64,000 bases of DNA from Kalmanozyma brasiliensis GHG001 (Eukaryota; Basidiomycota; Ustilaginomycetes; Ustilaginales), in the NCBI RefSeq assembly GCF_000497045.1, contig NW_015961948.1, positions 1,240,001 to 1,304,000 of the forward strand. Direction: 5' to 3'. The notes below the pieces were generated by a model that worked only from the letters and a program-made list of their open reading frames with translations, was not told the origin of the DNA and did not search any database. Shown here piece after piece: positions 11,876 through 47,953 of the stretch; positions within the stretch are counted from its first letter, which is position 1, and every line of letters begins with the position of its first letter. A program made the position numbers and the translations under genes.

Positions 11876-14533
11876 TCAGCGCAAGTCAAGGATGATGGGC
11901 TGGCGGTGAGGAGCGAGCCAGTTCCGTGTGGAAAAGACGGTCTCCAGGCCTGGCTCGCGATGAAAGCCGGTTCCAAAGCTCAGCACGCAGTCGAGAATGC
12001 CCTGTAACCCGCGCAGATCCGCATCGATAGCATCGAGGGTCATCGACGACGCAACGCCATGCTGGCTGATCTCTTGCAACGCATCCGGCACCAGCGCGCA
12101 GAACGAGATGTGCAGCACAGCGGCCAAATGGGTCGGCACGGGATGTCGGCTGCTGTGAATCTGCAGCGCAGGCACGATCATGTCGTCCTGGGGCAAGGGG
12201 ATGTCGATACGACCATGCGCAGAGAATTCGGACGATGTGCTCAGCCCTGCATCACTTCCACGATGGCCATGATCGCCGGCTCCACCAGGGGACGACTGTC
12301 CGCTGCTGTACGCATCGCGCGGCGGCGATCCACCGCCACTGCGAAGCGTATGCTCCACTTGCCTCGCCACCATACCGTGCAGTCTGCCGATCCGGAGCGC
12401 ACTCCTTCGACGCACTGCGCTTCGCATCTCTCGCGATTGATCCAGCTGGTTCCGAAGCATGCTCGAGGCCCGCGGCCACGAAGGGTCCTTGGAGCCTTGC
12501 ACCCATGGCATGCCTTCCAGGAAGCTGCAGATCTCCAGAAAGATGAGCGAGCCCATGCCGACTTGGTTGATGAGGTGCGTCACTACCGATTGGGCAGAAG
12601 CTGGCATCTGCGAGTAGAGATGCGCATCTAGATCCAGCAGGGGCTGGAAGACCTGCTGCACGAAGAGGATCATGGTCCAAGTTCGCTGAAACTGCTCTGC
12701 AAGCTCGGCAGATGTGCTGTCCGGATTGTCGAGGCATGCCCTGAAGTTGCCATTGCGCTGCCAGATCATGATCTGTGTCGACGCTCCGGCCTGGCACAAG
12801 TTCAAGAACTCTTTGACCCGGACGGGGTCGCCTGGCGCCGCCGCGAATCGGGCAAAACTGTACGGTATCTGCTTCGAAAGGTGGAGCGCTCGATGTGCTA
12901 CCAAGGTCCACGCGCTTGGGGAATCCGACGCCGCCGACACTGGACTGGACAAGGCGCCAGCTAACAGATGTTTCGGGTCGGTGTTCAATGCGAGACCCTG
13001 CGACGTCGACACAGAATTGTGCGTTCGATCGGTCCAATCTCGAGTCGATGCATCAAGGTCTCCATCCATGCCATTCGCCATCATGAGCCCGGGTCCGAGC
13101 CTCAACAGAGATGCGTCTTCAAATTGCAGGGCGCTCTGGTCAGGGTTGTGCGCCATGGCTGGCATCGAGCCAAAGCCGTTCTGCAGGAAGGGCGCACTTG
13201 CGTCAGCCATGGACCCGAACGAACCGGCGGCGACATGCATGCCGTTGTCGGGCGCCGCTGATTTCGCAGGCGAGACGGTCGCTGGCAGCAAAGCGGTCGA
13301 CAGTTGCAATGCGTCGATGTCCACCTTATCGCGCGTACTCGCCCGTACGACCGGAGGCATGCCGAAGCCCCCTGTCGTAGCAGCGTCGCAGATGGCCGAA
13401 TACCATAGCAGGTTCTCTGCAACGTCTTTCAGTGCATGCGCTCGGTCAACTCGCGCACGATATCCCGGGTCCGATCTCAGCAAAACCTCGTCGTCGATTC
13501 GAGCACCGTCCGTGTTTTGATAGCCGAGGGCGAAGAGGTCGTCATCCTGCTGACGCAGCAGATCCGTTGCTAGGTCGTCCATCATACGCAGTCCGTTCTG
13601 CAGCATGAAGACGCTGTCTTGAACGACGTCCAGGTCGGAATTGGTGCTGCGCAAGGGTGGGCAAGTGTTGCAGAACAAGTGAAGCGCATACGCCATCCGG
13701 AACGTCGTCACGGACGAATGCGCCATCAGATAGTTGCGCGCGCGCATCCAAGCAGCCTCGGCGATCTCGGCGTCCTTCCGCCTTCGAAGCACATCGCTCT
13801 CGTTGCCACGCCATTCGCCCGGGTTCTGTGATCCGTACTGGCTCGCATACGCCACGATGGCGTACTGAAGCGCCTGCATCGAGATCTCTTCCGCTTTCTT
13901 TGGCAGCCGCTTGAAGCGGCCGCTGGGTCGATATGCCTCGTCGCAGACAAAGGTGCTGTAGAAGAAGTTGGGAGAGACGTGCGGCACGTTGTTGACCACC
14001 ATCATGTCGTCCCAGGCGCGTGCCGCGGAGCCGCTGAGCAGACCACGACGAGGATGAACTGCCGCATCCAATCCCACCCCTGCGGGCGTTGCGCCAGAGC
14101 CGAGGAAATGCTGCCAGATCCACTCCCACGCCGCAACGTAGGTGAAGAGCTGCTTTGTCGAGATGTAGAGGCCATCGATGTGGTCGCTCATGCTCTTGGA
14201 CGCTGTCGAAAGCCCAGCAGGGAGATACTGGTGAGAGGAGAGCTGGTCCTGGAGAGCGCTATAGCTCGATGATGTCTGCGAGATGTGACGAAGCTCCTGT
14301 CTGCTGGAGCTGACCGTTTGCTGCAGCGCGCTCCAGTGTGTAGTACATTGGAGATTCTTGCGGACACAAAGTTTGCAGGGACCATCATGTTGAAGGGGCA
14401 AACCATCGGGACCTGCCTCGGCAAGATCGCATCTCCTCTTTGAACGACGGCATTGGTCGCAAGCTCGATTCTGGAGGCGCGAGCCGGATCTCGCGGCCTT
14501 GATCTTGTCTTCGATGGGACGTATCAACTCCAT
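11876..14533 (-). CDS. Zn2Cys6 transcription factor with long zinc-cluster loop
   Basis: The ORF extends up to a GTG at 14971; the first in-frame ATG is at 14533, giving 885 residues with the DNA-binding domain right at the N-terminus, as usual. The zinc cluster is C25-x2-C28-x6-C35-x17-C53-x2-C56-x6-C63, with the basic stretch RRSKRRC. The 17-residue loop between the third and fourth Cys is longer than the common 5-12. Residues about 130-560 contain helical, acidic-aromatic sequence compatible with a fungal transcription-factor middle homology region, interrupted by Ser/Ala-rich segments; a Gly/Ser-rich stretch follows near 750-790. Target genes are unknown. The residues encoded upstream of 14533 look like non-conserved leader. 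The 5' flank is a 2.9-kb gap. Confidence 0.8.
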   Translation of the reverse strand: MELIRPIEDKIKAARSGSRLQNRACDQCRRSKRRCDLAEAGPDGLPLQHDGPCKLCVRKNLQCTTHWSALQQTVSSSRQELRHISQTSSSYSALQDQLSSHQYLPAGLSTASKSMSDHIDGLYISTKQLFTYVAAWEWIWQHFLGSGATPAGVGLDAAVHPRRGLLSGSAARAWDDMMVVNNVPHVSPNFFYSTFVCDEAYRPSGRFKRLPKKAEEISMQALQYAIVAYASQYGSQNPGEWRGNESDVLRRRKDAEIAEAAWMRARNYLMAHSSVTTFRMAYALHLFCNTCPPLRSTNSDLDVVQDSVFMLQNGLRMMDDLATDLLRQQDDDLFALGYQNTDGARIDDEVLLRSDPGYRARVDRAHALKDVAENLLWYSAICDAATTGGFGMPPVVRASTRDKVDIDALQLSTALLPATVSPAKSAAPDNGMHVAAGSFGSMADASAPFLQNGFGSMPAMAHNPDQSALQFEDASLLRLGPGLMMANGMDGDLDASTRDWTDRTHNSVSTSQGLALNTDPKHLLAGALSSPVSAASDSPSAWTLVAHRALHLSKQIPYSFARFAAAPGDPVRVKEFLNLCQAGASTQIMIWQRNGNFRACLDNPDSTSAELAEQFQRTWTMILFVQQVFQPLLDLDAHLYSQMPASAQSVVTHLINQVGMGSLIFLEICSFLEGMPWVQGSKDPSWPRASSMLRNQLDQSREMRSAVRRRSALRIGRLHGMVARQVEHTLRSGGGSPPRDAYSSGQSSPGGAGDHGHRGSDAGLSTSSEFSAHGRIDIPLPQDDMIVPALQIHSSRHPVPTHLAAVLHISFCALVPDALQEISQHGVASSMTLDAIDADLRGLQGILDCVLSFGTGFHREPGLETVFSTRNWLAPHRQPIILDLR

Positions 14534-17455
14534 AGTGGTGGTACTAGAGTCTCTTCCGAGGCGCGACTCCGTGAGGACGACTCGGTCTGTCAAGCCGAGA
14601 TGTATGCGGGCGTGCGCGGCCTGGCCCTGACCGAAAGGGGCCGTGATGCGAGAGACGATCGCACAGATCAAGGGCGCATGCTCTAGACGATGAATGTGCG
14701 AGGTGTATGTCGGGGATGAACACGGCCAGGGAAGCTCGAGCAAGTCGGCGTCAAAGGATGGAAGCAGTCGTCTGCCGGTGATGCCGCTGCTGCTGCTGGT
14801 GATGCCGATGGTGGTGGTGACGATGGCGAGAGAGCGAGTGGCTGACTGCTCGGGAGGTGATGCGGGTCTCCAGTTCCTTTCGATGTTGCAGCGGGGGCGT
14901 GTTAGGGCAGAAGGTGGTTGCGAGGCAACATGAAAAGGGTCGGCAACTCGAAGATCGCTTTCCGACTCCACCAGATGACACAGGCTGCAGATGAGGAAGC
15001 CCGGGCGAAAGCAAGTTCGGTCGGTCGGTAAGTAAAGTTGGCGGATCTACGCAGTCGAGAAGAAGCAGATGATTGCAGAAGGCGATTTCCGCGGGGGCGG
15101 CAGCAGCTGCTGCGCAAAGGGAAAACCGGGCGGCAATCCAAAAAAGGGTTCCGAATGGCGTCTGTCGCTGGACCGGGCTACATTTTGGCTGTTTCTACGC
15201 CCTGCTCCTCATCCGCTCACTCGCTTGCATCGCCTCTTTACGTCCTCTGCACCAGCGCACCATTGGCTCAAGCCACGCAGCAAGCCACCACCACCTCTCC
15301 ACGCAAGTTGGCTCGCCCGTGTGTTCTGCTTTCATTGTCTCAGACGATAGTAGATTGCTCGTAAGGCGATCGCTCCCACATCATCACATGGAAGCGCCCG
15401 TCCTCTCCCAGCCTGCCAGTCTTGTCTCTGACGAGCCCGCCCACCCAAGCTCGAAGGTTCAGTCGAGCATGGCGCCGTTGTCGATGAGCGCCAACGACAA
15501 GTAACCTCCGACAAGCCGGCGCCTCAAGCGAGCCCGAAGAAGACTGCCCTGCAGAAGTGAAATGCTGACAGGTCATCATTCGATGCCGAATGCAAGCCTT
15601 CAGCGGGACTTGAAAATTGGCAACAACGCGACCTCACGTTCCTAGGGCCACGCTTCCTTTCACAGGCCAGGGTCGGCCCGTCGAAGAAGTCGGTGTCATA
15701 CTTCCCGAATGGGCCGAGTCCCATATGATCATGCGTTGGGTCGCATGCTTGCTAGCATCCAGTCTCGACCGCCTCGCCTGTTCTAGGACGCATCACCTTC
15801 AGATCAACGTTCGGCTGTCCCGTTCCGATCCCGATTATTTGCCGCGCCAAGCCTTCGTACCGTATGGAGCGTCCTGCGACGTCTGCTTGCCACGCCACAC
15901 CTTGACCCTTCGATGCAAGGCTGGTGCCCTCAACGCCGTGATCACCGACAGTCGATGTCAATTTGCGGCCCGTCATGTTCTCTCGAAGAAGTGCGAGTCA
16001 AAAGTTGATCATGGCACGCTATCGAGCTCGCCATGCAGCCGACCGCGGACCTGCATCCTACCAGGACTTCATTGAATCATACTCAAATTTGATTTTCGCA
16101 CCGATGCCTCGCGTAGCCTGCAGCGAAGGGTCGCTTATTCGCACTAGCGCTGCTGTTGCCCTCCTTTGCGCCGAAATTGCTCCTTGGCGACATGAATAGC
16201 GTCGTTCGACAGAGGATCGACTGTCCATCATCTCAGCATCAGAAGTCATGGAGCCTTCTCTCAACTACCGGCCATACCCTATGCCCTCTTTGGGGCTAGT
16301 CGATTCCGCGCCGTTTCCGTTCGGAAGCCTCTTCCGCGTGATATCGCCGATGTAAGCCGAAAAAGCAAAACCCGAAGGCGTGCCTCCGCGTAAAAGAGCA
16401 AACAATCAGCAGCACAAGCTCCTTGGCTGGTACACTTTTGGCACACGATACGCTATGACCTGCGCACGTCGCTTCCATTGCAGCCGCAGGACCACCGGGT
16501 TCCGAACGAGCTTCTCTGATGCTTCGATCAGCTGCAGACCCAATCTCGTCCCACCCTGAACGCAGTCGCCGTTCGTTTGGTTCGTAGGTCATGAAGCCGA
16601 AGCTGGCCGCTGATCGTAACACGTGCTTCGTCCATCAGCAGCGCAAACATCTCCTTGACAACGTCCCCAGTCAACCTCAAGACTGCTGATGACATGCCGC
16701 TGGCTTTGCTACTGGATCGCGTTCCGTCGACCCCTGGCAGACATCGAGACACAGTCACACGTGATTTCGGTCCTTTTCGGATCGCCTTCGACGCCAGCTG
16801 TGCTCAGGAATGGACCGTGGCTCCGCTGCACAAGACATATATCTGCAGCATCATTGTTGACAAGCGATCCCCGCCGCAATTCCGATGGAAAAGCCTGCAT
16901 CTCCTAGCAAGCCGACGCCGACGGATCACACCACCGCAAACGACGCTTGGATTCGCCTGCGACCGAAACGAAAATTGGAGCCGGGCGGGGCTGGAGACGG
17001 AGTGCCAAAAACGATTGGCGACTCGGATCTGTTGGCGAAGTGAGCCCTGCAGCGGGAGGAAATTTTCTCTGTCATAGGCCGTCTCGGAGTCCAGGAAATT
17101 GACAGCCAATCACCCTACGCCCGACGTCGCCGCGCATTTCAAACACACCAGCTCGCTTCTGCACCCATTCCCAAGCGAGAAGATCTGGACTCCCAGCCCT
17201 CTCTGCGGCTCCCCTCCAGCAAGCCACATTCTCCTCCTACCGCACAACGCTAAGACACAGCCTCACGCCTTTTGAGTCAAGCCACACTTTTTGTCTGACA
17301 TGTGCCTCCGTCGCTCACCCAGACGCTTCTTCCCCGCTGCACACAATCGCCGCAGCATTGGATAACCACGGAAGGGTCAACATCACCTGAGCTCAGTCTT
17401 GACATGCTTTTCGTTGTGTACATTGAAGTACAGTATTCGTGAGAGTGAGGCCAAT
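14534..17455. other. Long intergenic region without a convincing gene
   Basis: About 2.9 kb between two minus-strand genes. It should include the zinc-cluster gene promoter (right of 14533) and the 3' UTR of the GART/gelsolin gene. All ORFs here are under about 155 codons, overlap on several frames and show no domain. One short stretch at 15388-15504 (plus) has coding-like codon use but stops after 38 codons. I see no repeat, RNA gene or transposon remnant. Confidence 0.4.
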
Positions 17456-20400
17456 TCAAGCGAGCGCACGCTCGGCATCTTCGGCACCAACGCCGACAGG
17501 CAGGTAGTTGGCATCCTGGAGCGCCCACCGCGGCCACTGGTTCTGGCTGAGCTGCTCGAGCGCGCTCGCGGCCGAATGGACGTTCATCCTCGCAGCAGCG
17601 TCGCCCTGAAGGTAGTCGACGACTGCGTCGGACCAGACGCGCGAGGCGGCCCGCACCTCGAGTGGCAGCTTCGAGGGTAGGACGAGCACGTGCACTGCCG
17701 GTCGAGGGATGACTGTCGAGATGGACGACGCTGTCGCTCGCGATTTGACCTGCAGTTGCTCCGCAAGTTGCTGTGCTGCGTGAATGGCGCACGCCAGCCT
17801 GAGTTGGTCGGAGCGCGCGTCTTTACCGACAACCACGAACAGCTCTCGATCGCGAAGGTTGAGGATGGAGATCCTGTTGGATCGCGTTGGCAGGAGCAAG
17901 TCGTCTGCACCGTAGTAGCCCTTATCCGTGTAAGCGGTCAGACGAAGTTCGCGACCCTGCAGCTCGACATCGATCATGCTCGAGACGTCTGAGCCAGCGA
18001 CGTGGCGATGAGACCACGCGCCGGCGTACGCTTCCGTCTTATCAAAGATCTTCCAGAAGGCACTGTCTTCGCGGCCCTCCTCGGTCTCAGTCACGCCAGC
18101 GCCCGTCGAAGTGGACTTGGCGAGTGCTTGAGCGAAACGCACTGCAGCAGCTCGAGCCGACAAAGGAGCGCCGCGACCGTGCCAGACGCCCAGCGTCGAC
18201 GGAGCAGTGTATACAAAGCTGTCCCCTGAGCAGAGGTTTCCGGTTCGGAGGTCGACCTGCTGGATCGTGAATCGGTCCTCCTGAGCCTGAGCAGCAGCCA
18301 CAGCGCGACGAACACGGTACAAAGACGCAGCCCCAGCGTCAAATCGCTTTCGCGAGCCCTGACGACTCAGCGTCCAAGTCCCCGATAGCGCGGCGATCAG
18401 CTCTGCCGTCTCGCATCCCGCAGGAACCACGTCCGGCTGCACCGAGTATCGCTGTGCCAGCTCCGCCACCTTGCGTCCTTCCGCACACGACAGGGAGCGA
18501 GGACCAAGCTCGAACGGGTGCAGGTTGGAGTGATGTCCGACTCGCACCCAGAGCTTCGTCTGTGTGGCGCCAGCGCCGGATTTGGAGCGCTTTACGATGA
18601 TGATCGTCTCGTCATCGTACAGGATCTGTTCGCGTCGCAGTTGCTCGCCGCGCTGGAAGGTCTGATCGCCGGACAGCTCCAGAGGCTCGACGAGTCCATC
18701 GCGGTCGATGGCGAGCAACTCAACCGAGGTCGTCTTTGCAGACATCGGGGCTGAAGCAGAGGCTTCCGAACCGTCGACGAGCCTGTCCACGCTGGGGCGT
18801 GCGCTGCGCACGATCGCCGAGGCGGTAGCGACAACATCGCCGTCTTGGGATTGGATCCGCACGATGTCCGTGGGAGAGCTCTTGTCGGCAGGAGAAGCGG
18901 CAATGTCTGCTTTCTTGTTTTCGGCCTGCTGTCGATCGAGCTGTTCCAGATGGCCCTTGAGCACGAGGTCAGCCGCCTGTACTATGATGACGTGCTCGAT
19001 CTTGTGGATCGCCTGCTCCAATTGATCCAGGTCGTAGGTGGGAAGGATGGGAACCTCGCGCACGATGATCGGACGGCCTCGATCGACATCGGCCACCACT
19101 TCGTGTACCATGCATCCTGTCTTGTCAGTGAGACCCTGTTGATACGCCTCGAAGGCGCGAGGGATCGCGTTGGCACCATCGAAAGCACCAGGCAGCGCGG
19201 GATGAAGGTTGATGATAGGCACCGCTTTGGACGGGCGTGTTCCAATCGTTGGCGTACTCGCGGGCAAGCTCGTCTTGTGACCCAAGGCGTGGAGGAATGG
19301 CTCGGAGACGATGTGCATGAATCCTGCCAGGACGATCAGGTCGGGAGGCGAACCTGCGCCTTCAGCACTGGGACCATCCAATACAGCGCGAGCGAGCACA
19401 GTGTCGTACTGCTCTCGCGTGCCTCCAGGGTTTCGATTCTGCCAGGTCTTGAGCGAGAGAACCTTGGTGGGAATGGGCGGGTTCGACTCGGCAGCTCGGG
19501 TGAGACCGTAAGCAGCTTTGCGGTTCGACAGGACGAAAGTGATTTGCGCGTTGTCAATGACGGGAATGCCAGCGGGAGGGTTGAGAAGGGTGGCGTCGAT
19601 CAAGGACTGTAGGTTCGAGCCGGATCCAGAGACCAGAACATGGACGCGCTTGCCGGTAGTCCTGCGTGGCGGCTTTGTCGAAGCGACGCTAGCTGTCTTG
19701 GCCTCACTTTGCGGTGTTGCGGTGCTTGTCGTTGGAAGGCTGCTTTGCGCCGCTGCGCTGGGAGAAGAGCCCGCAAGCTTGGCATCGGAAGTTGCCGCCT
19801 TTCGAACAGGACCCTTGGCCCTCGCTTTGGTGAGCGGAGTCAGGACCTGGTCTGTGTTACCAGCAGTGTTTGCGGAGGAAGACAAGTCTGGGATGCTGAT
19901 GGCTTCCTCAGTTCGTGCCTTGTTCTCGGCGAATCGAGCAAATGGGCTCGCACTGCCACCCATTCCAGGCAATCGAATCGGTTCCGCTCGCGGCTCGGCA
20001 ACGATCTCGTTCTTCTTGGGCGACGACTGCCACGGACTCGAGCTGGTCTCTTTGGTGGGTGAGCGTCCAGCAAGGCCCGGGAGCGCGTTGCCGTACTTGG
20101 TGGGCGACCATGGCGAGCCGCCGCTCCTGCGTTCGTCGAGGCTGGGTTTAGCAGGAGAAGCACCCGTCTGGATCGCTGGAGGCCATCGATCGCGAACAGC
20201 AGGGCTAGAAGGTACGCTTCGTCCTGTCGAGCCCACCTGCATAGAATCGGCTTCCTTTTGGGCCACGACATCTCGCATTTGCGCTTCCTTGATGCGCTGT
20301 CCGACCATCTTTTGGGCGCTGAGGCGGGACAGGGACTTGGTAGGAAGGCGGTCCGCGTTCGACAGCTCGCTCGTGTAGCTGTTGGATCGACTGGTAGGCT

Positions 20401-21763
20401 GCGAGGTGGGAGCGTCAGCTTGCTCAGCGGGTCGACTCCAACCCTTGCCGAGACCATTGTCGACTTTGATTTGTCCTGAGGCGGCGGGCACCTCGATCTC
20501 CTCCGGCTTTAAGGGGCTCGTGGCAGCGTCCTTTCGCTCTGGAGAGGCTTCAGAGGTGTATGATCTGGACTGAGCGTTGGGAATAGCCAGCGGTCGAGAG
20601 ACGTGCAGGCTGTTGTTGTCCGGCGCGCTGTCACGAGTCGAGCTGCTGACGGCAGTGAAGGGCGACGAAGATGAAAAAGAGGCAGCCTTGACGGGTGAAG
20701 CGGGACGCTCGAGGCGAGGCGAAGCTGTGACGCTGTCAGCTCCGGAGAACTTGTTGAATTTGGAAGGGCTCGAAGCTCGAGGGATAATGGGGGAAGCCGG
20801 AGAGTTGGTTGACTCGGCATGGCTCTGCTTTTCGATGAGATCCAAGTATGCCTTCTTGGGCGATGGCGGCGTCTGCATCGCTGACGAGCCGGTCGATGCA
20901 GCATTGTTGGAGGGTCGGCCGAGCTCAGCAGAAGTGAACGAGTACTTTGCGGGGCTACTCGCCTTGACGGGAGAAGGAGGCGTCGATGCTTCCGTGACAG
21001 GCGATCGGGGAGAGCCTCCTGCTCGACGATTGCCGCTGGCATCCGCTCGATCCTCGAGGAAGCTGGCGAGCGAGCGACCCGTGTTGGGCACCATGCCTGG
21101 CATCGGAACACGTCGGTTTTCGTGAATCAGGTCGGCCTCGGGAGGTGCGCTCTTGCCGTCACCTGCGAGCTTGCCAAGACGCGGACCTGCTGCTCTGCCT
21201 CCCATGAAATTGGCGAGGGAGACGGGCGAGTCCGTTGCGCCCTTGGGACCGGCAGCTACTCCCGTCGGACCATACTGACCGCCGTAGCGTGCCAACAGCG
21301 AGTTGGCTCTCTTGACTCCCGTCACGCCAGACGCCTTTGTCGGTGACGATCCGAGAACAGGTGATTGCGAAGTCATGTCGGAGTATCCGAGCGCTTCCGA
21401 CGGTGAGCTCTCGAAAGTCGGCGTAGCAAGCGGTGACTTGGAAGAGGAGATGCCACGAATGCCTGAGACGGAGAGTCGATCTCTGCGCTGTTGCCGTTCG
21501 AGGCGCTGTCTCTGGAACTCGAGCTCAAGCTCCGAGGCAGAGGACGTTGTCGGGTCTTGCGACTGTGATGATGGTGACTGTGCCGTTGCAGATGAGGCGG
21601 ATGACGAGTTGCGGTGACGAACCTGGTGGACCCACGAAGCGAGATCCTGAGTCGGCGCTTCCACTGGACTCTTGGCGTGAGAAGAAGCTGTGCCAACACC
21701 TTCGAATGGATCCGCCTGTCGTGGGAAAGAATGAGATGATGACTGTTGAGAAGAGAAAGACAT
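17456..21763 (-). CDS. ADE8: Glycinamide ribonucleotide formyltransferase (Ade8) domain inside a gelsolin-like protein
   Basis: A continuous 1435-residue ORF from an ATG at 21763. Residues 1-700 are disordered, with many S-P-x-K sites and short motifs such as ANFMGGRAAGPRL. Residues 704-941 are a full PurN/Ade8 domain: the phosphate loop HVLVSGSGSN, then DLIVLAGFMHIVSEPF, then NLHPALPG with N852 and H854, then the catalytic Asp D894 in ADVDRGRP. These match the Asn-His-Asp triad that transfers formyl from 10-formyl-THF to GAR in step 3 of purine synthesis. Residues about 1040-1336 hold three gelsolin-like repeats (TKLWVRVGH; ASLYRVRR...GVWHGRG; ELFVVVGKDARSD), the second followed by FWKIFDKTEAYAG as in fungal gelsolin proteins. 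Yeast Ade8 is a stand-alone enzyme of about 214 residues. No stop or splice signal separates the parts, so a fused protein is expected; whether it is processed is unknown. Confidence 0.85.
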   Translation of the reverse strand: MSFSSQQSSSHSFPRQADPFEGVGTASSHAKSPVEAPTQDLASWVHQVRHRNSSSASSATAQSPSSQSQDPTTSSASELELEFQRQRLERQQRRDRLSVSGIRGISSSKSPLATPTFESSPSEALGYSDMTSQSPVLGSSPTKASGVTGVKRANSLLARYGGQYGPTGVAAGPKGATDSPVSLANFMGGRAAGPRLGKLAGDGKSAPPEADLIHENRRVPMPGMVPNTGRSLASFLEDRADASGNRRAGGSPRSPVTEASTPPSPVKASSPAKYSFTSAELGRPSNNAASTGSSAMQTPPSPKKAYLDLIEKQSHAESTNSPASPIIPRASSPSKFNKFSGADSVTASPRLERPASPVKAASFSSSSPFTAVSSSTRDSAPDNNSLHVSRPLAIPNAQSRSYTSEASPERKDAATSPLKPEEIEVPAASGQIKVDNGLGKGWSRPAEQADAPTSQPTSRSNSYTSELSNADRLPTKSLSRLSAQKMVGQRIKEAQMRDVVAQKEADSMQVGSTGRSVPSSPAVRDRWPPAIQTGASPAKPSLDERRSGGSPWSPTKYGNALPGLAGRSPTKETSSSPWQSSPKKNEIVAEPRAEPIRLPGMGGSASPFARFAENKARTEEAISIPDLSSSANTAGNTDQVLTPLTKARAKGPVRKAATSDAKLAGSSPSAAAQSSLPTTSTATPQSEAKTASVASTKPPRRTTGKRVHVLVSGSGSNLQSLIDATLLNPPAGIPVIDNAQITFVLSNRKAAYGLTRAAESNPPIPTKVLSLKTWQNRNPGGTREQYDTVLARAVLDGPSAEGAGSPPDLIVLAGFMHIVSEPFLHALGHKTSLPASTPTIGTRPSKAVPIINLHPALPGAFDGANAIPRAFEAYQQGLTDKTGCMVHEVVADVDRGRPIIVREVPILPTYDLDQLEQAIHKIEHVIIVQAADLVLKGHLEQLDRQQAENKKADIAASPADKSSPTDIVRIQSQDGDVVATASAIVRSARPSVDRLVDGSEASASAPMSAKTTSVELLAIDRDGLVEPLELSGDQTFQRGEQLRREQILYDDETIIIVKRSKSGAGATQTKLWVRVGHHSNLHPFELGPRSLSCAEGRKVAELAQRYSVQPDVVPAGCETAELIAALSGTWTLSRQGSRKRFDAGAASLYRVRRAVAAAQAQEDRFTIQQVDLRTGNLCSGDSFVYTAPSTLGVWHGRGAPLSARAAAVRFAQALAKSTSTGAGVTETEEGREDSAFWKIFDKTEAYAGAWSHRHVAGSDVSSMIDVELQGRELRLTAYTDKGYYGADDLLLPTRSNRISILNLRDRELFVVVGKDARSDQLRLACAIHAAQQLAEQLQVKSRATASSISTVIPRPAVHVLVLPSKLPLEVRAASRVWSDAVVDYLQGDAAARMNVHSAASALEQLSQNQWPRWALQDANYLPVGVGAEDAERALA

Positions 21764-23948: not shown

Positions 23949-24656
23949 CTACATGAAAGAGTCGTCGCTGTCCATGCCATCGTCGTGGTCATCGTCTTCG
24001 TCCGCCGACGCGTTGCCGTTGCCGTTGGCTTTGGCGAGCTTGCGTTCCTCTTTGCGTTTGCGTTCTTCTTCCATGGCTTCAGCGGTGTAGAGCTTCGAGT
24101 AATCGCGGGCCTCGACCTCTTCCTTTCTCTTCTTCTGCTCGGCCTGCTGTGCCTTTTTGTCTTCGATCGCTTTGGCCTTCTTGACCCTTCCCTCTTGGCG
24201 CAGTCTGTCCTGGCGTTCAGCCTCGTGATCGACCTGCACCTCCTTCTTTGTCTTGTTCAACCTATTCACCGCTGCATTGTCCTTTTCCTTGACGTGGAAA
24301 CGCTTGACCTTGCGATCGTTGTGAAACGTCACTGCGCCGACGGCCATGTCGCCGCTCTTCTTGACATTGGCCCATGGCGTGTAGATAATCGTAAGATTCG
24401 ACTTTTTGTTGCCCTCGATCGAATTCGCCTTGACCAGCTGCGAGCAATCGCTCACCAACGCCTCCGGTATCGACTCCCACGACTCGATGTGCTCGGGCAG
24501 CCGAAGATACACGTGAGCGGAAGAGAGCTTGTCGACGTGAAACCAGATGTCCCGCTCCAGACCGTACTTGAGGAGTTCCTCATTCTCGAACTTGTCCTTG
24601 CCCATGTAGATGGTCGCTGGCGGGTCGACCGCTGTGGATGTGAAGTAGAGCACCAT
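23949..24656 (-). CDS. CCDC25: CCDC25/Jlp2-like NFACT-R domain protein
   Basis: A 235-residue intronless protein starting at the ATG complementary to 24654-24656. Residues 1-130 form the NFACT-R (DUF814) fold: MVLYFTS at the start, then IYMGKDKFENEELLKYG, DIWFHVDKLSSAHVYLRLP and the conserved IIYTPWANVKKSGDM. Residues 135-215 are a Lys/Glu-rich coiled coil, and the tail is acidic (ADEDDDHDDG). Length and order match the conserved CCDC25 family (yeast Jlp2). The NFACT-R fold occurs in ribosome-quality-control factors such as Rqc2; human CCDC25 has also been reported as a DNA sensor at the cell surface. The cellular role in fungi is not established. It is convergent with H2A.Z (245 bases) and divergent from the Aurora kinase. 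Confidence 0.9.
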   Translation of the reverse strand: MVLYFTSTAVDPPATIYMGKDKFENEELLKYGLERDIWFHVDKLSSAHVYLRLPEHIESWESIPEALVSDCSQLVKANSIEGNKKSNLTIIYTPWANVKKSGDMAVGAVTFHNDRKVKRFHVKEKDNAAVNRLNKTKKEVQVDHEAERQDRLRQEGRVKKAKAIEDKKAQQAEQKKRKEEVEARDYSKLYTAEAMEEERKRKEERKLAKANGNGNASADEDDDHDDGMDSDDSFM

Positions 24657-32278: not shown

Positions 32279-32768
32279 ATGGAGACCTGAACTAGAGTCA
32301 GATCCCAGGGTCTTGCACCTTCTCACCATCATCATACCTTGCTTTCACCCATCGAGGAGGCACAGGACCTGCTGCTTTGCATTTCAGCAGTCGCCCCGTC
32401 TTGCGGCGCAGAGGCTCTGGATTCGGTCATTCTCCACATTCGGCTCCGCCGCGCTACGACTCAGCTTCTTTCTCACGTCACACGGCTGCCCTCCGACCAT
32501 CACTTCCACTCAGCACACCACAGAGCGCAGAGCCGACAAGCAGCTGTGCACAATCACGTTCCAGCCAAGTCAATCTCTTACGGCTCCTCCGTGTCGATCG
32601 AACCTTGCGCAGCTCGAATCATCACGGCCGTCGACCACCTGCTGCCGCAGCACACTTCGCTATCCAGTCCGTACCATCGATGCGCTGATCAGTGCACCAC
32701 CTGTCTGCCGCTCTTACATTGCAGTCATAGCCAAATCTTCCTCAAAACATGCGATTGGACCTTTCCTA
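32279..32768 (+). promoter_or_regulatory. Leader with three short upstream ORFs
   Basis: Between a TATA-like element near 32252 and the main ATG at 32831, the only ATGs I find each open a tiny ORF: 32279-32290 (3 codons plus stop), 32679-32687 (2 codons plus stop) and 32748-32768 (6 codons plus stop). If transcription starts near 32270, ribosomes would meet all three before the factor's start codon. The first is counted only if the transcript begins that far upstream. Confidence 0.45.
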
Positions 32769-32830
32769 GCATACGACCGTCAGCCCATCCGGGAGCGAGC
32801 ATTGGGTCCACACACCGCGAGCTTCCCACC

Positions 32831-35506
32831 ATGACGAGCAGGACGCCCATCGACGACCGAAGCCCGCCGCGTTATTCTCAGGATACCCCTCCAGCCAATC
32901 GCTGGAACGCGCCACCTGGCTCCGACCACTATATTGCTGGTCATGCTGGCCCTTCCCGGCAGCCCCTTGATCCTCGCAGCGGCCTCGATCAAGCTGGGTG
33001 GAACACACGAACTCCTCAGTATCCGGGAATGACGAACGCCCCCACTGCATGGCCCAGTCACGGGCGCGACCCAGCAGCGTCAACAGAGGCCTATCCGCCA
33101 CCATTCCCTTCAGGCGATGCGACCATTGCACCAGCAGTACCCTACACATATGGTCCTTCTCAACCTCAACCAACGCCACCAAATCATCTCATGACAGCCT
33201 CGACATCTTCTGTCCCGGGCCGGAGATTATCGGATGAGAGATGGCAAAGGTATGAGAATGCAAATAACATACAGGCTGCAGGATCTTCCGCATTTCGCGC
33301 TCCATCGATTCGCGAGCCCCTGCCACTTCGAGAAGCTGCGCTGGTCCCTTCTCCTTTGGAAGTGCACCCACCGCCTGCTGCTGCTCCGCCTGTCGCTGCG
33401 AATGCAGAGCCGGACCCGCCGCGTGCCAGAGTCGCCTGCACCTTCTGCCGAGTTCGCAAGCTGCGCTGTGATGGAGCAACACCATGCCGACATTGTGAAC
33501 GTCGCAGCATCGACTGTGTCTATGCGCCCACAAAAACCAAGGCCAAGGCCTCTGGACACGAAACATCAAGCACAAGCAAAAGCGGCCACGACTCTGCCTC
33601 AACCCCTTCAGCCAGGCAGATCTATGTGACCAGCGAAGGCCGTGATCGAGGTACCAAGCGGATCGAACCGCCAAACCAGCTGGATGATACAGCACGATCC
33701 CTCGACACAAATTCCGCCAGTCCGAGCGAACCCTCGAAGCGCATCAAGAGCACCAACGGCTCCCTGCGTCGATCAAAGTCTGGCGATGCGTCCGATCGCA
33801 GCGCGGCCCCCTCATCGACACCGAGCAGTAGCATGCCCGGATCGGATCTGGCCATGATTCAGAATAACGACTCGCCGATTCCGATGCAACCTACATTCGG
33901 CGACCACGACGATTGGTGGAGTCACTTGCTTGGCATCTTTGGAAGGTCACGACCCACGTCCACTCGAATCGTCCAACATCTTCTCACCCGGTTCGTGCAG
34001 TCCAACGCGGTGTTCTTTGGCTTACTTCATGCACCGACGCTGCTGGCCGTCGTCTCGGGCAAACAGGGTCATGCGCGAGCGGATCCAGCGCTATATTTGG
34101 CTGTCCTAGCCGTCTCGGCATGTGACATGCACCAGACTCGCATCGCAGATGAACGCACCTCCGACATGACCTCGGCCAACGAAGCATCGCGGCAGCTCGC
34201 CGCAAAGCTATCCGAAATGGCTGCCACATATCTCCAGACTGCCACAGCTCACGGATCTGCCCTCACTCCTTCCATGGGCCAGGCTGCCAGTATTCTCGCT
34301 CTGACCCAGCCAGACGGCAGCACAGAGCAGAACAGCCTCATCCGCTTGGCGGAAAATGTAGTTCGAACACTCAGCTTGCACGAGGCTGTCTCGTCACGAG
34401 AGCCACTGCTGCAAGACAGTGAGCCGGATTCGCCCCTCTACTGGTCTCGACCCGTCACATCCGACTCCCCCGAGTCCGAGGTCAAGTACGAGTCCATCGT
34501 TCGACTGTGCTGGACGGGGATCAGCCATCGCTTTCGCAAGTACATCGCCAAGCCAGACGAGGATTTTGGCGACGTCGACCTGCCGGATTTCATTCAAGAG
34601 ATCCGGCCCATGGCTTTCTGGCAGCCGAGTGTGCTTCCAGAAGATCTGCCACCACCGTTCTTCCACTCGCAAGACCTGATGCGGAGATCTGCTCACCTGT
34701 CTCGGCTCACAGTCTCGCTTGCCAAGCTGGAAAAGATCAAGGAAGTCGATGAAGCAGGCACGCCACCGTCCGACACGCTCGAGCAGGTCAGAGGCCTCTT
34801 GCGGTCTCTCGACGATCTCGAGACGTCATTCGTGCGACATCGACCACGATCGGATGCAGAGAGGCACAATGTCCTCGGGCGAACGCTGCAGATGTTTTGC
34901 CGAATGCACGTCTGGGTGCGACTCACCATCTGGCGCAAGTACAAGCTGTGGAACAGCGCCAGCGACGCACGATCGGATGACGGAGCGCAACGGCTCTTTC
35001 AAACAACGCATCACCCAACCGTCGAGTTTTGGCTCACCATCGTGCAGGATATGATCGATACCATGCAGCAGGATCTGGATGCGCACGTCGTTGATATGAC
35101 TGCGCTGCGAACGAGTGCTGCTGACGTCGACGCGCTCGCTCGACACGTCATCTGCGCTTGCGATCTGGTCGTCGCGAGCGGCGAGGCGCAACCTATTGCG
35201 GGGCAAGTCGATGTTGCGTTGATTATCCTGAAGCGGATGTTGGCGCATGCTTCGCTGAACGAGGCCAAGGATGGGCTTCATTTGACGGACGACGTGGTGC
35301 AGCGGGTCAAGCTTGGTGAGACACGACGCGCAGAGCTGACGGTTGGCACTGCAGCGGCCGCCGAGCAGCCAGAGGTGACCGAAGCAGACGTCGGCATTGT
35401 TCGAGATGACCCAATGCCACCCGCTGACCAGCTGTCAGCCGAACCGGCAGCGACAACCGAGCCAGTCGTCGAGCCAATCAGCACCGAGGAGCTGCCATCA
35501 CAGTAA
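32831..35506 (+). CDS. Zn2Cys6 transcription factor with fungal TF domain
   Basis: The ORF opens with a TTG at 32339, but ATG 32831 in CCCACCATGA is the natural start, giving 891 residues. The zinc cluster is canonical: C203-x2-C206-x6-C213-x5-C219-x2-C222-x6-C229, with the basic stretch RVRKLRC. A Ser/Lys-rich linker follows. Residues about 350-560 resemble the fungal-specific transcription-factor domain (LTRFVQSNAVFFGLLHAPTL, then HADRADP-like and ALYLAVLAVSACD segments), ending in an acidic Pro/Glu-rich C-terminus that could activate transcription. It is unrelated in sequence to the other zinc-cluster factor in the window outside the DNA-binding domain. Targets are unknown. The leader carries short uORFs. 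Confidence 0.85.
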   Translation: MTSRTPIDDRSPPRYSQDTPPANRWNAPPGSDHYIAGHAGPSRQPLDPRSGLDQAGWNTRTPQYPGMTNAPTAWPSHGRDPAASTEAYPPPFPSGDATIAPAVPYTYGPSQPQPTPPNHLMTASTSSVPGRRLSDERWQRYENANNIQAAGSSAFRAPSIREPLPLREAALVPSPLEVHPPPAAAPPVAANAEPDPPRARVACTFCRVRKLRCDGATPCRHCERRSIDCVYAPTKTKAKASGHETSSTSKSGHDSASTPSARQIYVTSEGRDRGTKRIEPPNQLDDTARSLDTNSASPSEPSKRIKSTNGSLRRSKSGDASDRSAAPSSTPSSSMPGSDLAMIQNNDSPIPMQPTFGDHDDWWSHLLGIFGRSRPTSTRIVQHLLTRFVQSNAVFFGLLHAPTLLAVVSGKQGHARADPALYLAVLAVSACDMHQTRIADERTSDMTSANEASRQLAAKLSEMAATYLQTATAHGSALTPSMGQAASILALTQPDGSTEQNSLIRLAENVVRTLSLHEAVSSREPLLQDSEPDSPLYWSRPVTSDSPESEVKYESIVRLCWTGISHRFRKYIAKPDEDFGDVDLPDFIQEIRPMAFWQPSVLPEDLPPPFFHSQDLMRRSAHLSRLTVSLAKLEKIKEVDEAGTPPSDTLEQVRGLLRSLDDLETSFVRHRPRSDAERHNVLGRTLQMFCRMHVWVRLTIWRKYKLWNSASDARSDDGAQRLFQTTHHPTVEFWLTIVQDMIDTMQQDLDAHVVDMTALRTSAADVDALARHVICACDLVVASGEAQPIAGQVDVALIILKRMLAHASLNEAKDGLHLTDDVVQRVKLGETRRAELTVGTAAAAEQPEVTEADVGIVRDDPMPPADQLSAEPAATTEPVVEPISTEELPSQ

Positions 35507-35717: not shown

Positions 35718-38612
35718 CTACCCGTTGATCAGCCTGATCGTGAGATACAGCGTGCTTCCGATGAAGCGAATGCACGCCATCCCCGCCACAAAGATCAACA
35801 CCAACACCATGTACACCTTGCTCCTTGTCACGCCTGCGCCCTCGGTGAAGGTGCTCGTCGTGTTTCCATTCAGAATAAACGCGGCGACGACGCCGTTGCT
35901 GAGGGCCCAGGCGAGGACGACGTTGGTGCGGATGTTCTTGTAGTAATCCATCTGGCGGGCGTTTTTCTCGTCGTTGCTGGCGTCGCCGCGGATGATCATG
36001 GGTCGGGTGCGAAGGTTGTTGAGTGCGTCATCGTAGGCGGTATCGATGTCGGCTTGAGCGGTGGGGAGGGTGATCTCCACTGTGCCCTTGCCCGTGGAGA
36101 CGACAACGCCGAGATCCTTCGAGACGGTAGTATCGCCCTTGGTGCCCCAGGAGAAATCGTGCAGGTTGCAAAAGGCGTAGATGTTGAGGATGTTGATGTA
36201 CGTCGGTGCGAGGAGGAGGTATTGGATGAAACTCGTCACCAGATGCAGCGGATCGCATGCCAATAGCGAAGAGACCAGATAAACGCCGTACGTGGCGAGA
36301 AGGGAGACCACCATCTGAGCATAGATCATATCGTGCTCCACCCGCTTCACTACTTTCGCCAAACACAATACCGCCGCTACCATCATGTACACCGTCAACA
36401 ACGCAAAGATGACTACGGCAGCCCAGTACTTCCACTTGCTCCCCTGCGGTCGATTGCCCATCGCAAAGATGAAACTCGCCACCACGGTGCCGAGGTACAT
36501 GTACTGGGCAAAGACGTTGAAGATGCCGATGCCCTTAAGCCCGAAGGTGGGGTCTTCGAGGGAAGTCGTGAGGATGCGGAAAAAGATGTAGTAGTTGGCC
36601 AGGCCGAACCAGGCAAAGCACATGTTGATGAACGAGTAGAAGCTCTCGAACACCAACAGGGCTTTTCGCCATCCGCCGTGACCGGATTGAACAAACTGCG
36701 CCGTGTGGTACAGCGCGTAGATCGCGGCGAAGAACGAACCGTTCAACCAACGACGTCGTTGCGAGATGAATTCGGGTAGACCTTCGGGGACGTCCGTGAC
36801 ACCACGGGCCGATTTGACGTATTTGAGGACCCAGCCCGAGCCACGTTTGGCGGCTAGCTCGAAGCACAGGATGCGATCCTCGGCGAGATACATGTTGGAA
36901 GTAAACACGTCGGCGTCCGCACCGAGAAGGTTCTCGCCCTTAAAGTAGCTCGCTAGCGGCCCATGGCCGAACTCGTCGTTCTGCAGTGCGATGTAGCGAT
37001 ACGCACTAAACGCTCCCGGTAGCACCGAGATGTACCCCATAACAGACTCGGTCGTCTTATCCAAGATGTTACTGATCTTGTACTCGAAGTTCTGCGCGGC
37101 CACCAGTGGGTTCAACAACAGCGGCCCAACTCCCCACTTGCCTTTCGTCTCGGCACAGATCTCCCCGCATGCACCGGCGACATTCGAGTTAAGATCAAAG
37201 CTCTTCCACAGATAGTAGATGCTCTTGTTCTCCGGTCTCGTCCCTACATCCAACAGAATGGTCACATTCGGTTGGAGGATGGGGCAAAAAGCGTTGAAGA
37301 ACCACCGATGCGAATTGATCTTCTTGGCATTCTTCTCCTTGAGGCAAAAGATGATCTGCATGGGCACCAGTCCTCGTTCGGCGCCCTTGAACTGGAGGTT
37401 GGTATCGATGCTGAGTTGGGTGGTATACTCGTACAGGTGGGCGTGGACTTCTTTGCCATCGACGGTGTTTTTCGCTACTCCGTCTTGGTAGACGCCGAGC
37501 GCGGCGAGACAGTCCAGCACGCGGGGATGGATCTTCTTACGGCCGTCGGAGATGATGGCGACAACGACCTTCTTCCACCCATCCTTGCCCCACGTGCGGG
37601 ATTTGTTGCGGGAGCACAAGTGGGCGATGTTCTTCATGACACCGTGAAATGTGCGGCAGAAGAGCACTTCGTCCTCGTTGTACATGGTGATGGCGATGAA
37701 CAGCTCGGTGTGACGGCCGTACAGCGCGGGGCGGAGGGTGAAGGATTCGGCAGCAAACTGGTCGGGATCGCACGTCACCGCAGAGTATCGCATGGTGGTG
37801 AATTCATCCTCGGCACGACGCGTGAGGAAGGTCTGCAGCTTGGTGGGCACGGGGCAGTCGAGGATGAGGTTTCCCTTGGTGAGGCGCACATTCTTCTTGG
37901 TCTTGTGTCGACGCAGTTGAGCGCCGAGGAGGGGAGCAGGGCCGAAGTGCTGTGTTTCGTAGTGGTTGTCCCCGAATTGGCCTTCGGATGGTTGTCCCTC
38001 GTGGCCGCCGAAAGCGTCGTGGGCCAGAGCGGCGTATGTGTCGTCCTCCTCGGCGGATACTTGTGCGTAAGGGCTTTGGAGGAACGCAGACCCAGCTGTT
38101 GTCGCGCCGTACTTTTCGTCGTGCTCCATCGCGCTTCCGCCGTACTTGGTCTCGGCATCTTCTTCGTCATCGTCGCCCTCGCCGTGGTCGAGCGAAGAGT
38201 AGTGCCCCGCCGCAGCCTGGTTGTTGTAGTACGTATATTCGTTGTCCACGGACGCCGCTTGCGCCGACGAGTACTCGGGTAGCGTCGGCAGGTGTCCACC
38301 CATCGTTGAGCTGACTGCTGCCGATGGTGGGCGGGCCAGTGCATATGCTGCTTGACCGTAGAAGCTCTCGCTAAGCGGAGGCTGCTCAACGCTGACGCTC
38401 ATGCGGTGCTGGTTGAGCGACGACATGCGCGCAGTGACAGGTGCGTGTGCGTCCGAGAACGGCGAGGCGGAGGGTGCGGAGGCATCGTAGGGGTGGGTGA
38501 AGGCGGCTCCGCTGCCAGTGATGATGTCTGGGTCCGGATAGTATGGATATGGGTCCTGGTCACCTTGTGTGTGTCCAGCGGCCGCCGAGGATGGCCGCGA
38601 ATAATAGGCCAT
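35718..38612 (-). CDS. Chitin synthase (division 1)
   Basis: A 964-residue intronless protein from the ATG complementary to 38610-38612. Residues 1-220 are a disordered Tyr/Ser/Gly-rich N-terminus. The catalytic region follows: [17 protein letters not shown], the processive GT2 core with [12 protein letters not shown], then AEDR (E578-R580) and QRRRWLNGS (618-622), the EDR and Q/RxxRW signatures of chitin synthases. Several membrane segments follow between about 650 and 860, and two more at the very C-terminus. There is no myosin motor or cytochrome-b5 domain, so it is a class I-III enzyme that polymerises GlcNAc from UDP-GlcNAc at the plasma membrane. Smut fungi carry several such paralogues; which one this is cannot be decided here. 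It is convergent with the zinc-cluster gene (211 bases). Confidence 0.93.
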
Positions 38613-46267: not shown

Positions 46268-47953
46268 TTAGACGCGGGCGATCCACCTGCCCTGCGACAA
46301 ATTGAATCGGACTTTTGCGATAATGAGTGTGCCCACCAGAGTAGTTCCTGCTGCCCAGATGGCTAGCGCTGTATATCTGCCATGCATCTGGCTGACGAGG
46401 GTGGTCGAGATGACAGGTCCCACCAGTGCACCGGGGGCAGCCATGGTCCAAGTCAACCCCAACCTCGCGCCGGCGTTCTTCTTGGAAACCTGCCCGACAC
46501 ACGAGCTGACGGTCGCGATGGCTCCTCCGCTGGCGAGGCCGTAGCCCACGCTCAGCGTCAGCACTCCCGCCTTGGTCAACGTCAGCCCAGGGATGGGCCA
46601 GAAGAGGGCCAGACTGAGGAAGCTACCACACCCAAAGAGGGTGAGCACGTTGAATCGACCATATCGATCCGCCAACGGACCCGAGGCCAACCGCCCGATG
46701 AGACTGGCCGCGTTCATAATGGCCACCATGTGCGTCGCCATCGAAGCGGAGAATCCGACCTTGCGCGCATATGAGGCGATGGTGAAGAAGGGCACGAAGA
46801 AGTTGATGAACATCACTGCTACTCCCACCACGAACAGAGTGTAGGTGGACGGGTCCGAGGTGAGCAGTGTCCAAGCCTGGAACCACGGTTGACGCAGTGC
46901 TGCGGGTGTAGGCGGCAGTCGGGGTCGCATGAGTACGTTGCTGATGGTGAGGAGAAGGGCGAGGATGAACGCGGCAATCCTCACTCCCCAGCGGAAGCCA
47001 ATCTGAGGGGTGTCGAAAAGACTCTGGAGGATCAAGGGCCAGATGATGCCGCCGAAGCTCGCCGCGCCAATGATGACCGACATCGCCGTCCCCTTGCGCT
47101 TATCGAAGTATTGGTTCACCAACGCGCACCCCGGCAAAAACAACATGCTTCCTCCCAGACCGAAAAGCACGCCCTGAACGAGGATGAGCTGAATCAAAGT
47201 CGAACAGAACGAGACGCAGAACATCGAGATGAACGTAATGACGCTGCCGAGGATGAGGATCCATCGTCCACCGTAGTCGTCCGAGATCTTGCCAAAGACG
47301 AACGAGCCGCCGAGAATCATGAAGGTTTGCAGACTGCCGATCCAGCTGACGGTGGATGCGGGGAGGTGAGCGAGCTGGTGGGAGGTGTAGTAGCTCTGAA
47401 AGACTCCGTAGGAGGTGAGCAGGCCGAAGTTGGTCATGATGAGCAGAAAGGTGCCTGCGACGACGAGCCACGCTTGCAGACCGCCATCTGGTGCTGGACC
47501 GGGAGCCGAGTCTGATGGGAGAGAAGCTTTCTCGATGTCCTTGCCCGAGTCGAAGGACGGGGTGGACTTTTCGTCGAGGAGCTTGGGACGGTCGAGCTTG
47601 TCGAAGGACGCACGAGGAGTGTTGGCTACGAGCGTGTCAGAGCTGGTGTCGATATCTTTTGCCACAGTAGATGGGCGCTCATGTGGGTTCTGTTGCTGCA
47701 GCAATCGCTGAGCAAGGCACTTTGGCGAGACACCTTCGTGCGCGAACTTGCCTGATTTGTCGCCGATAGAAACACTGCCAGAGCCGGATGTTGATAGGAG
47801 GTTGCTGATCGAGACACTGTTGCGTCGTGTGGGTGCTGCTGAGTTGACTGCAGTGGCATCGGCTGAGGAGAATCTGGATTGTGGTGACGAGCAGCTTGAT
47901 GTCGAGGAGCATGGCGAGCAAGAGCTATCGGCTGAAGGGCGAATCGGCTCCAT
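46268..47953 (-). CDS. MFS transporter, monocarboxylate-porter (MCT/Mch) type
   Basis: A 561-residue intronless protein starting at ATG 47953. The first 150 residues are a Ser-rich cytosolic tail. The transporter core begins with PDGGLQAWLVVAGTF, the conserved [D/E]G[G/S][W/x]GW-like entry of the MCT family. Twelve hydrophobic segments follow, with the loop 2-3 signature GKISDDYGGRW and, in the second half, GPLADRYGRF. Fungal members (Mch1-5) include the riboflavin carrier Mch5 and esterase-associated transporters; the substrate here is unknown. The protein should lie in the plasma membrane. It is convergent with the hydrolase and divergent from the F-box-like gene. Confidence 0.88.
   Translation of the reverse strand: MEPIRPSADSSCSPCSSTSSCSSPQSRFSSADATAVNSAAPTRRNSVSISNLLSTSGSGSVSIGDKSGKFAHEGVSPKCLAQRLLQQQNPHERPSTVAKDIDTSSDTLVANTPRASFDKLDRPKLLDEKSTPSFDSGKDIEKASLPSDSAPGPAPDGGLQAWLVVAGTFLLIMTNFGLLTSYGVFQSYYTSHQLAHLPASTVSWIGSLQTFMILGGSFVFGKISDDYGGRWILILGSVITFISMFCVSFCSTLIQLILVQGVLFGLGGSMLFLPGCALVNQYFDKRKGTAMSVIIGAASFGGIIWPLILQSLFDTPQIGFRWGVRIAAFILALLLTISNVLMRPRLPPTPAALRQPWFQAWTLLTSDPSTYTLFVVGVAVMFINFFVPFFTIASYARKVGFSASMATHMVAIMNAASLIGRLASGPLADRYGRFNVLTLFGCGSFLSLALFWPIPGLTLTKAGVLTLSVGYGLASGGAIATVSSCVGQVSKKNAGARLGLTWTMAAPGALVGPVISTTLVSQMHGRYTALAIWAAGTTLVGTLIIAKVRFNLSQGRWIARV

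Follow-up and report, generated by a model that had tools for sequence, protein, structure and literature searches.

PurN transfers the formyl group of 10-formyl-tetrahydrofolate (10-formyl-THF) to glycinamide ribonucleotide (GAR) in the third step of purine synthesis. Bacterial PurN and its fungal counterpart Ade8 (PF00551, TIGR00639) are separate enzymes: in a search with a GAR formyltransferase (GART) domain of 243 amino acids (aa), which could return proteins of ~134–425 aa, they measure 213–323 aa among the best 120 of 7027 matches, two fragments of the clade described below aside. In animal GART, named 'trifunctional purine protein' in the Protein Data Bank, the domain lies inside a long protein and its partners are other purine enzymes. 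Indeed, fusions of metabolic enzymes usually link steps of one pathway. Here we describe a gene from a window of 64,000 nucleotides (contig NW_015961948.1, positions 1,240,001–1,304,000) of the basidiomycete Kalmanozyma brasiliensis GHG001 in which this housekeeping enzyme instead lies inside an apparent cytoskeletal scaffold of 1435 aa, so that, unlike in animal GART, its partners are scaffold sequence and gelsolin folds. The likeness outside the enzyme is to a basidiomycete gelsolin-repeat scaffold with DUF7904 (for example P0043 from Tulasnella and P0049 from Ganoderma; P numbers denote the protein records compared), which has the same three N-terminal blocks (R, A and B, in identical order) and a matching C-terminal gelsolin part, but in which the GART profile matches nothing in 18 of 18 unfused records. 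We consider it probable that the fused gene is the fungus's only detected GAR formyltransferase, inserted once into this older scaffold, with both functions carried on one polypeptide.

The gene occupies 17456..21763 of the window on the minus strand, as do all its features listed below. A single open frame runs from ATG to TGA, and the start of the encoded protein agrees with that of the orthologue P0003 (1436 aa). The uninterrupted frame joining an N-terminal region, an Ade8/PurN domain and gelsolin-like repeats, which was the core of the original prediction, is borne out by relatives, 40 of 41 protein records sharing the architecture. Block R (residues 78–97; 21473..21532) is common to unfused Agaricomycete scaffolds; matches to position-specific scoring matrices (PSSMs) define block A (SPVSLANFMGGRAAGPRLGK, residues 179–198; 21170..21229) and block B (DRLPTKSLSRLSAQKMVGQRIK, residues 471–492; 20288..20353). 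The GAR formyltransferase domain (residues 705–936; 18956..19651) is followed by a variable linker (residues 937–1008; 18740..18955), delimited by identity comparison and low model confidence (predicted local distance difference test, pLDDT), and by three gelsolin-homology domains resembling G4–G6 (residues 1009–1383; 17615..18739). Two of the four segments of the structure model with pLDDT <50 fall in the linker. Identity to the seven closest of 12 compared sequences is 82–97% in GART, 22–75% in region 937–1038 and 42–85% in the gelsolin part; for the five closest it is 92–100% in blocks R, A and B and 64–89% over the N-terminal region as a whole. This pattern indicates that enzyme and scaffold are both constrained while the stretches connecting them drift. 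GC content by codon position (GC3 0.47–0.77) is uninformative.

The enzyme half is very likely a GAR formyltransferase, its activity being predicted by sequence and fold. PF00551 (formyl transferase) passes comfortably in the window protein (104.4 bits against a gathering threshold of 26.1; E value 7.8e-30). The PurN model TIGR00639, whose curated cut-off is 150.1, gives 144.4 by hmmscan and 152 with the pieces summed; among fused orthologues it scores 164.1 (P0032), 149.1 (P0026) and 131.3 (P0021). Residues 706–940 match solved GAR transformylases, and modelling predicts the GAR transformylase fold for the domain. The catalytic residues had been reported as intact and are in place: Asn852 and His854 in the INLHP motif (19202..19210) and Asp894 in the VADVDRG motif (19082..19084), which we take to be Asn106, His108 and Asp144 in E. 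coli numbering. The motifs INLHPA and VHEVxAxVDRG are conserved in all 41 records P0001–P0041. A PurU identity was considered and rejected, the PurU model scoring 25.7 against a cut-off of 285.95.

The fusion is real, old and the property of one clade. A protein search with residues 690–1435, able to return lengths of ~790–2510 aa, gave 43 records. GART followed by the gelsolin part was found in 40 of the 41 records P0001–P0041, of which P0001 (the window protein) and P0002 are one gene from the same genome; the gelsolin part is only partial in P0020 and P0021. The sole exception is P0022 from Sporisorium graminicola, an annotated model in which the protein stops shortly after GART; it is either a cut gene model or a genuine split. 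Within these records, P0022 apart, close relatives bearing the two parts as separate genes did not turn up. A survey of Ustilaginomycotina, proposed with the original prediction, found fused members in all three classes sampled: Ustilaginomycetes (for example Thecaphora), Exobasidiomycetes (Tilletiaria, Microstroma, Tilletia) and Malasseziomycetes (Malassezia obtusa, with a shortened protein). Compact fused proteins of 803–872 aa occur among the Malassezia-like records, that is, those grouping with P0032 in the tree.

Three further records came from the same search: P0043, a scaffold only, P0042 and P0044. P0042 (Coprinopsis marcescibilis) joins PurN to a kinase and P0044 (Emericellopsis) joins Nup107 to PurN; both may be merged neighbouring genes. 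Public protein names hide the scaffold half of the fused proteins. Several are called 'related to glycinamide ribonucleotide transformylase', and no displayed (abbreviated) name contains gelsolin. In Thecaphora frezii and Tilletia horrida (P0021 and P0039) the fused gene is misleadingly annotated as 'Bifunctional purine biosynthetic protein ADE5,7'. P0020, recorded as Cichorium endivia, resembles a Moesziomyces-type smut gene and lies nearest to P0017 in the tree; it is a probable contamination in a plant assembly.

Phylogeny of the domain sequences suggests that the enzyme most likely entered the scaffold once. A quick tree was built from 75 of 162 domain sequences (40 fused and 35 of 122 others, the latter hand-chosen for spread). 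In it the 40 fused enzymes and P0062, P0063 and P0064 form one clade (Shimodaira–Hasegawa-like approximate likelihood ratio test, SH-aLRT, 99); the outgroup P0044 is very long and the position of the root unsure. A more careful tree of 64 sequences comprised 39 fused enzymes (P0028, long and truncated, was dropped), P0062–P0064 and 22 others. It separates these 42 from the 22 with support of 100/99, and the split is found in 100% of 200 bootstrap trees; the value of 65/88 read at the ancestor of the 42 after re-rooting was taken as a label displaced by re-rooting, and the group table was used. P0062, P0063 and P0064 ranked best in the GART-only search; they contain GART but lack the gelsolin part. 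Each is a short or partial record: block A is still present in P0064, the sequence of P0062 opens within the scaffold region that lies ahead of GART in full-length proteins, and P0063 is labelled partial. No complete separate Ade8 of the fused clade was found among the best 120 matches of that search, in which the recognizable names are Agaricomycotina except for P0063, from Ceraceosorus. The basidiomycetes knowingly included in the trees are Agaricomycotina and Ustilaginomycotina.

Comparison with unfused proteins supports a scaffold that predates the fusion and received the enzyme by insertion. A search with Tulasnella P0043 gave 20 records: the query, 16 long scaffolds, the partial P0061 and the fused P0018 and P0031. 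In Asterophora parasitica an unfused scaffold (P0059) exists alongside a separate Ade8 (P0098). Scaffold profiles were built from 15 unfused sequences, leaving out P0045 (a near-copy of the query), P0061 (partial) and P0060 (without the start motif), and the C-terminus of the window protein scores 169.6 bits with the C-terminal profile. On the N-terminal side, PSSMs of the blocks were made from up to 16 scaffolds and compared with 390 shuffles. The window protein exceeds the best shuffle for block R (19.6 against 11.2), block A (42.2 against 9.2) and block B (16.6 against 6.6). Among 39 fused proteins scanned (P0002, the same gene, and P0028, truncated, were left out), every shuffle is beaten by block A in 34, block B in 28 and block R in 20; the five without block A (P0006, P0008, P0009, P0024 and P0025) appear N-terminally truncated. 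A hidden Markov model (HMM) of the whole N-terminus places 25 of the 39 fused N-termini above the best reversed control (4.2), with P0026 reaching 88.6. Because unfused agaricomycete scaffolds match both sides of GART, the proposal that the enzyme was inserted into one gelsolin-family protein is supported. A motif, RYGG..GPTG, lies just ahead of block A in 32 of 40 fused proteins, including that of Malassezia obtusa, but in none of the 18 unfused scaffold records; in the window protein it reads RYGGQYGPTG (residues 159–168; 21260–21289, minus strand). It may be an addition peculiar to the fused proteins.

The C-terminal part is likely, from its fold, to be actin-binding. Structure models predict three gelsolin-homology folds here and a G4–G6-like fold in the Malassezia obtusa protein too, and in both proteins the enzyme and gelsolin folds are modelled confidently. 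Structural alignment to gelsolin gives ~20% sequence identity; relative to the C-terminal half of gelsolin and villin (G4–G6), the calcium-site Asp of the middle domain is also found in only 17 of 47 aligned sequences, and the window protein is without G1–G3. Of the profile searches suggested at the outset, that for the enzyme was positive and that for gelsolin suggestive but sub-threshold, PF00626 scoring 15.6 against a gathering threshold of 21. PF25480 (DUF7904), likewise suggestive, gives 21.5 in the window protein, under its threshold of 30; it is passed by the fused P0026 (43.0) and the unfused P0043, P0046, P0049 and P0051, P0052 falls below it (28.9) and P0032 is without a match. In the Malassezia obtusa model predicted disordered stretches flank GART on both sides, and in the window model low-confidence gaps lie behind GART. 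Docking of block A onto GART or the gelsolin part is not seen in the Malassezia model, in which that stretch has low pLDDT.

A suggested tie to calcium was weakened. Gly1180-Asp1181 (18221..18226) aligns with the Asn-Asp of the gelsolin middle domain, which we take to be a type-2 calcium site; the comparison covers this domain alone among the three. The window protein and 16 close relatives (P0003–P0012 and P0014–P0019) carry the Asp; it is missing from the other 30 aligned sequences, including Malassezia, Tilletiaria, Microstroma, Tilletia (P0039 is gapped there) and agaricomycetes. A calcium switch was down-weighted since only a single group of closely related sequences has the Asp. Calcium control through the middle-domain site, if any, would be peculiar to one lineage and would not account for the fusion.

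We then asked how many related genes the fungus itself carries. The genome (17.27 Mb in 26 contigs, possibly incomplete) was searched exon by exon. PF00551 finds the fused gene and two others, with which the TIGR00639 search agrees: a PurU gene (303.2 bits, above the PurU cut-off) and an fmt-like gene (156.6 bits for its best model, fmt, whose cut-off it does not reach). Hence the search for a second ADE8, one of the checks first proposed, yielded no second PurN with either model, and purT has no match over its cut-off. GARS gives one strong hit on a contig other than that of the fusion and one weak hit. The unfused scaffold P0043 matches this genome only at the fused gene, over the gelsolin part, and a second scaffold was not found. 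The three PF00626 hits in the genome are Sec23/Sec24-type proteins. Genome searches with PF25480 and PF13254 were empty; their controls were silent as well, so these carry no weight. The PurU-type formyltetrahydrofolate deformylase gene (L001:1441-2658; G000:C1, about 590700-591270) has ~100 residues ahead of its conserved part.

We propose that the insertion dates from the last shared ancestor of the three Ustilaginomycotina classes sampled, or from an earlier one, and that it fell in the stretch with the conserved N-terminal motifs on one side and the three gelsolin-fold domains on the other. A single polypeptide would then carry enzyme and scaffold functions as beads on a flexible string. 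By analogy with PurN the domain would transfer the formyl group from 10-formyl-THF to GAR, and the gelsolin fold suggests that the C-terminal part would bind actin. If so, the enzyme would be located where the scaffold is, at actin patches, the cortex or the division site. Such placement might be useful, as a local station of purine synthesis, or merely tolerated. The further step, that across a subphylum actin structures (the growing cortex or division septum, for example) position or tune purine synthesis, in a covalent form of the loose purinosome idea, strikes us as rather doubtful.

Several observations weigh against this proposal. For the window protein the gelsolin and DUF7904 models both stay under their cut-offs, and the PurN score by hmmscan lies just below its own (144.4 versus 150.1). 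The N-terminal link depends on short blocks picked post hoc, after the sequences had been read; the window protein shows no significant match to blocks W, G, C and F (78, 6, 7 and 10 of the 390 shuffles, respectively, reach its score), and the whole-N-terminus HMM gives it 2.8 bits when the best shuffle reaches 4.0 and the best reversed control 4.2. Nine Malassezia-like records retain block A alone of the three blocks. The length range of the fusion-protein search favours fused records and shuts out any short, free-standing Ade8. In the genome, neither PF00626 nor PF25480 detected the fused gene itself, and another divergent gelsolin-like gene could escape them too. Finally, a start at the internal Met601 could give a GART–gelsolin product without most of the N-terminus.

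It is quite possible, if short of probable, that the fusion is a frozen accident: the enzyme landed by chance in the scaffold, ADE8 disappeared from its original locus and neither half can now be dispensed with, the two functions having no influence on each other. The predicted disorder around GART in the Malassezia model, the low-confidence gaps behind it in the window model and the poorly conserved linker all fit such an outcome, as do the restriction to one clade and the lack of a detected unfused copy in the genome, which lock-in predicts. An accident of this kind clashes only with the usefulness of the placement and not with the sequence-based steps of our proposal. Against it, no split occurs in 41 records bar one annotated model, despite the compact versions in Malassezia-like fungi; this is weak evidence because the search was limited in length and splits are easily missed.

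Alternatively, the gelsolin-fold part may have lost actin binding and now only stabilize or oligomerize the enzyme. We regard this as unlikely. The low identity to gelsolin and the failure to keep calcium-site residues family-wide would be explained by it, but the G4–G6-like fold is predicted in Malassezia too, and the C-terminal part appears to have a function of its own because unfused scaffolds keep it without the enzyme. Less credible is the making of the parts separately, through alternative transcripts, internal initiation or proteolysis, which would leave a fusion mainly at the level of the gene; this has at best a small chance. Long variable linkers would permit cleavage, P0022 ends just after GART, and P0062, P0063 and P0064 are without the gelsolin part, though short or partial; but P0064 retains block A, P0062 opens in scaffold sequence, and a single frame runs across both joins. 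Met601 is the nearest Met upstream of GART in the window protein, 103 residues away, with a similar spacing (95–107) in 20 of 39 proteins. The lack of an upstream Met was abandoned as an argument against separate products since this spacing recurs in many close relatives. What speaks against internal initiation is that no Met lies close ahead of GART in the window protein, that the distance varies from 18 to 332 in the other 19 proteins, and that such a start would still leave GART joined to the gelsolin part. An artefact of assembly or gene modelling can be dismissed, as 40 of 41 records from several sources share the architecture and relatives already exclude it.

An enzyme carried by a scaffold provides a natural test, in a tractable group (Ustilago maydis), of whether cytoskeletal placement of a purine enzyme matters. 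Disruption of the gene may strike two processes, and 'ade8' phenotypes in the fused clade could blend auxotrophy with actin effects. Going by the title of their 2020 article, Mamun and colleagues reportedly describe a Pezizomycotina gelsolin-domain protein of septum formation that regulates the contractile actin ring; by analogy this septal protein may serve as a lead to where the scaffold acts. DUF4045 (PF13254), presumably part of these septal proteins, had no match in the eight proteins scanned. The fusion is undescribed as far as our searches go: no published description of a PurN–gelsolin fusion was found among the listed papers on fungal gelsolin, DUF4045, Ustilaginomycotina purine synthesis and ADE8, most subscription journals lying outside coverage. 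In Magnaporthe, Gelsolin-GFP serves as a marker of F-actin at the appressorium pore, according to the available portion of one report (PMC6325701), and gelsolin is an actin-severing protein whose position at the pore is septin-dependent, according to part of another (PMC10952683). A review of purine metabolism in fungal plant pathogens tabulates Ade8 from Fusarium, Magnaporthe and yeast; for Ustilago maydis it mentions, in the portion available, Ade6 alone (PMC10879430).

Among ten open reading frames of the window chosen for scanning, none belongs to a purine family. The neighbours of the fused gene are two Zn2-Cys6 regulators (11876–14971, minus strand; 32339–35506, plus strand), an NFACT-R protein (23949–24656, minus), a chitin synthase (35718–38612, minus) and an MFS transporter (46268–47953, minus).

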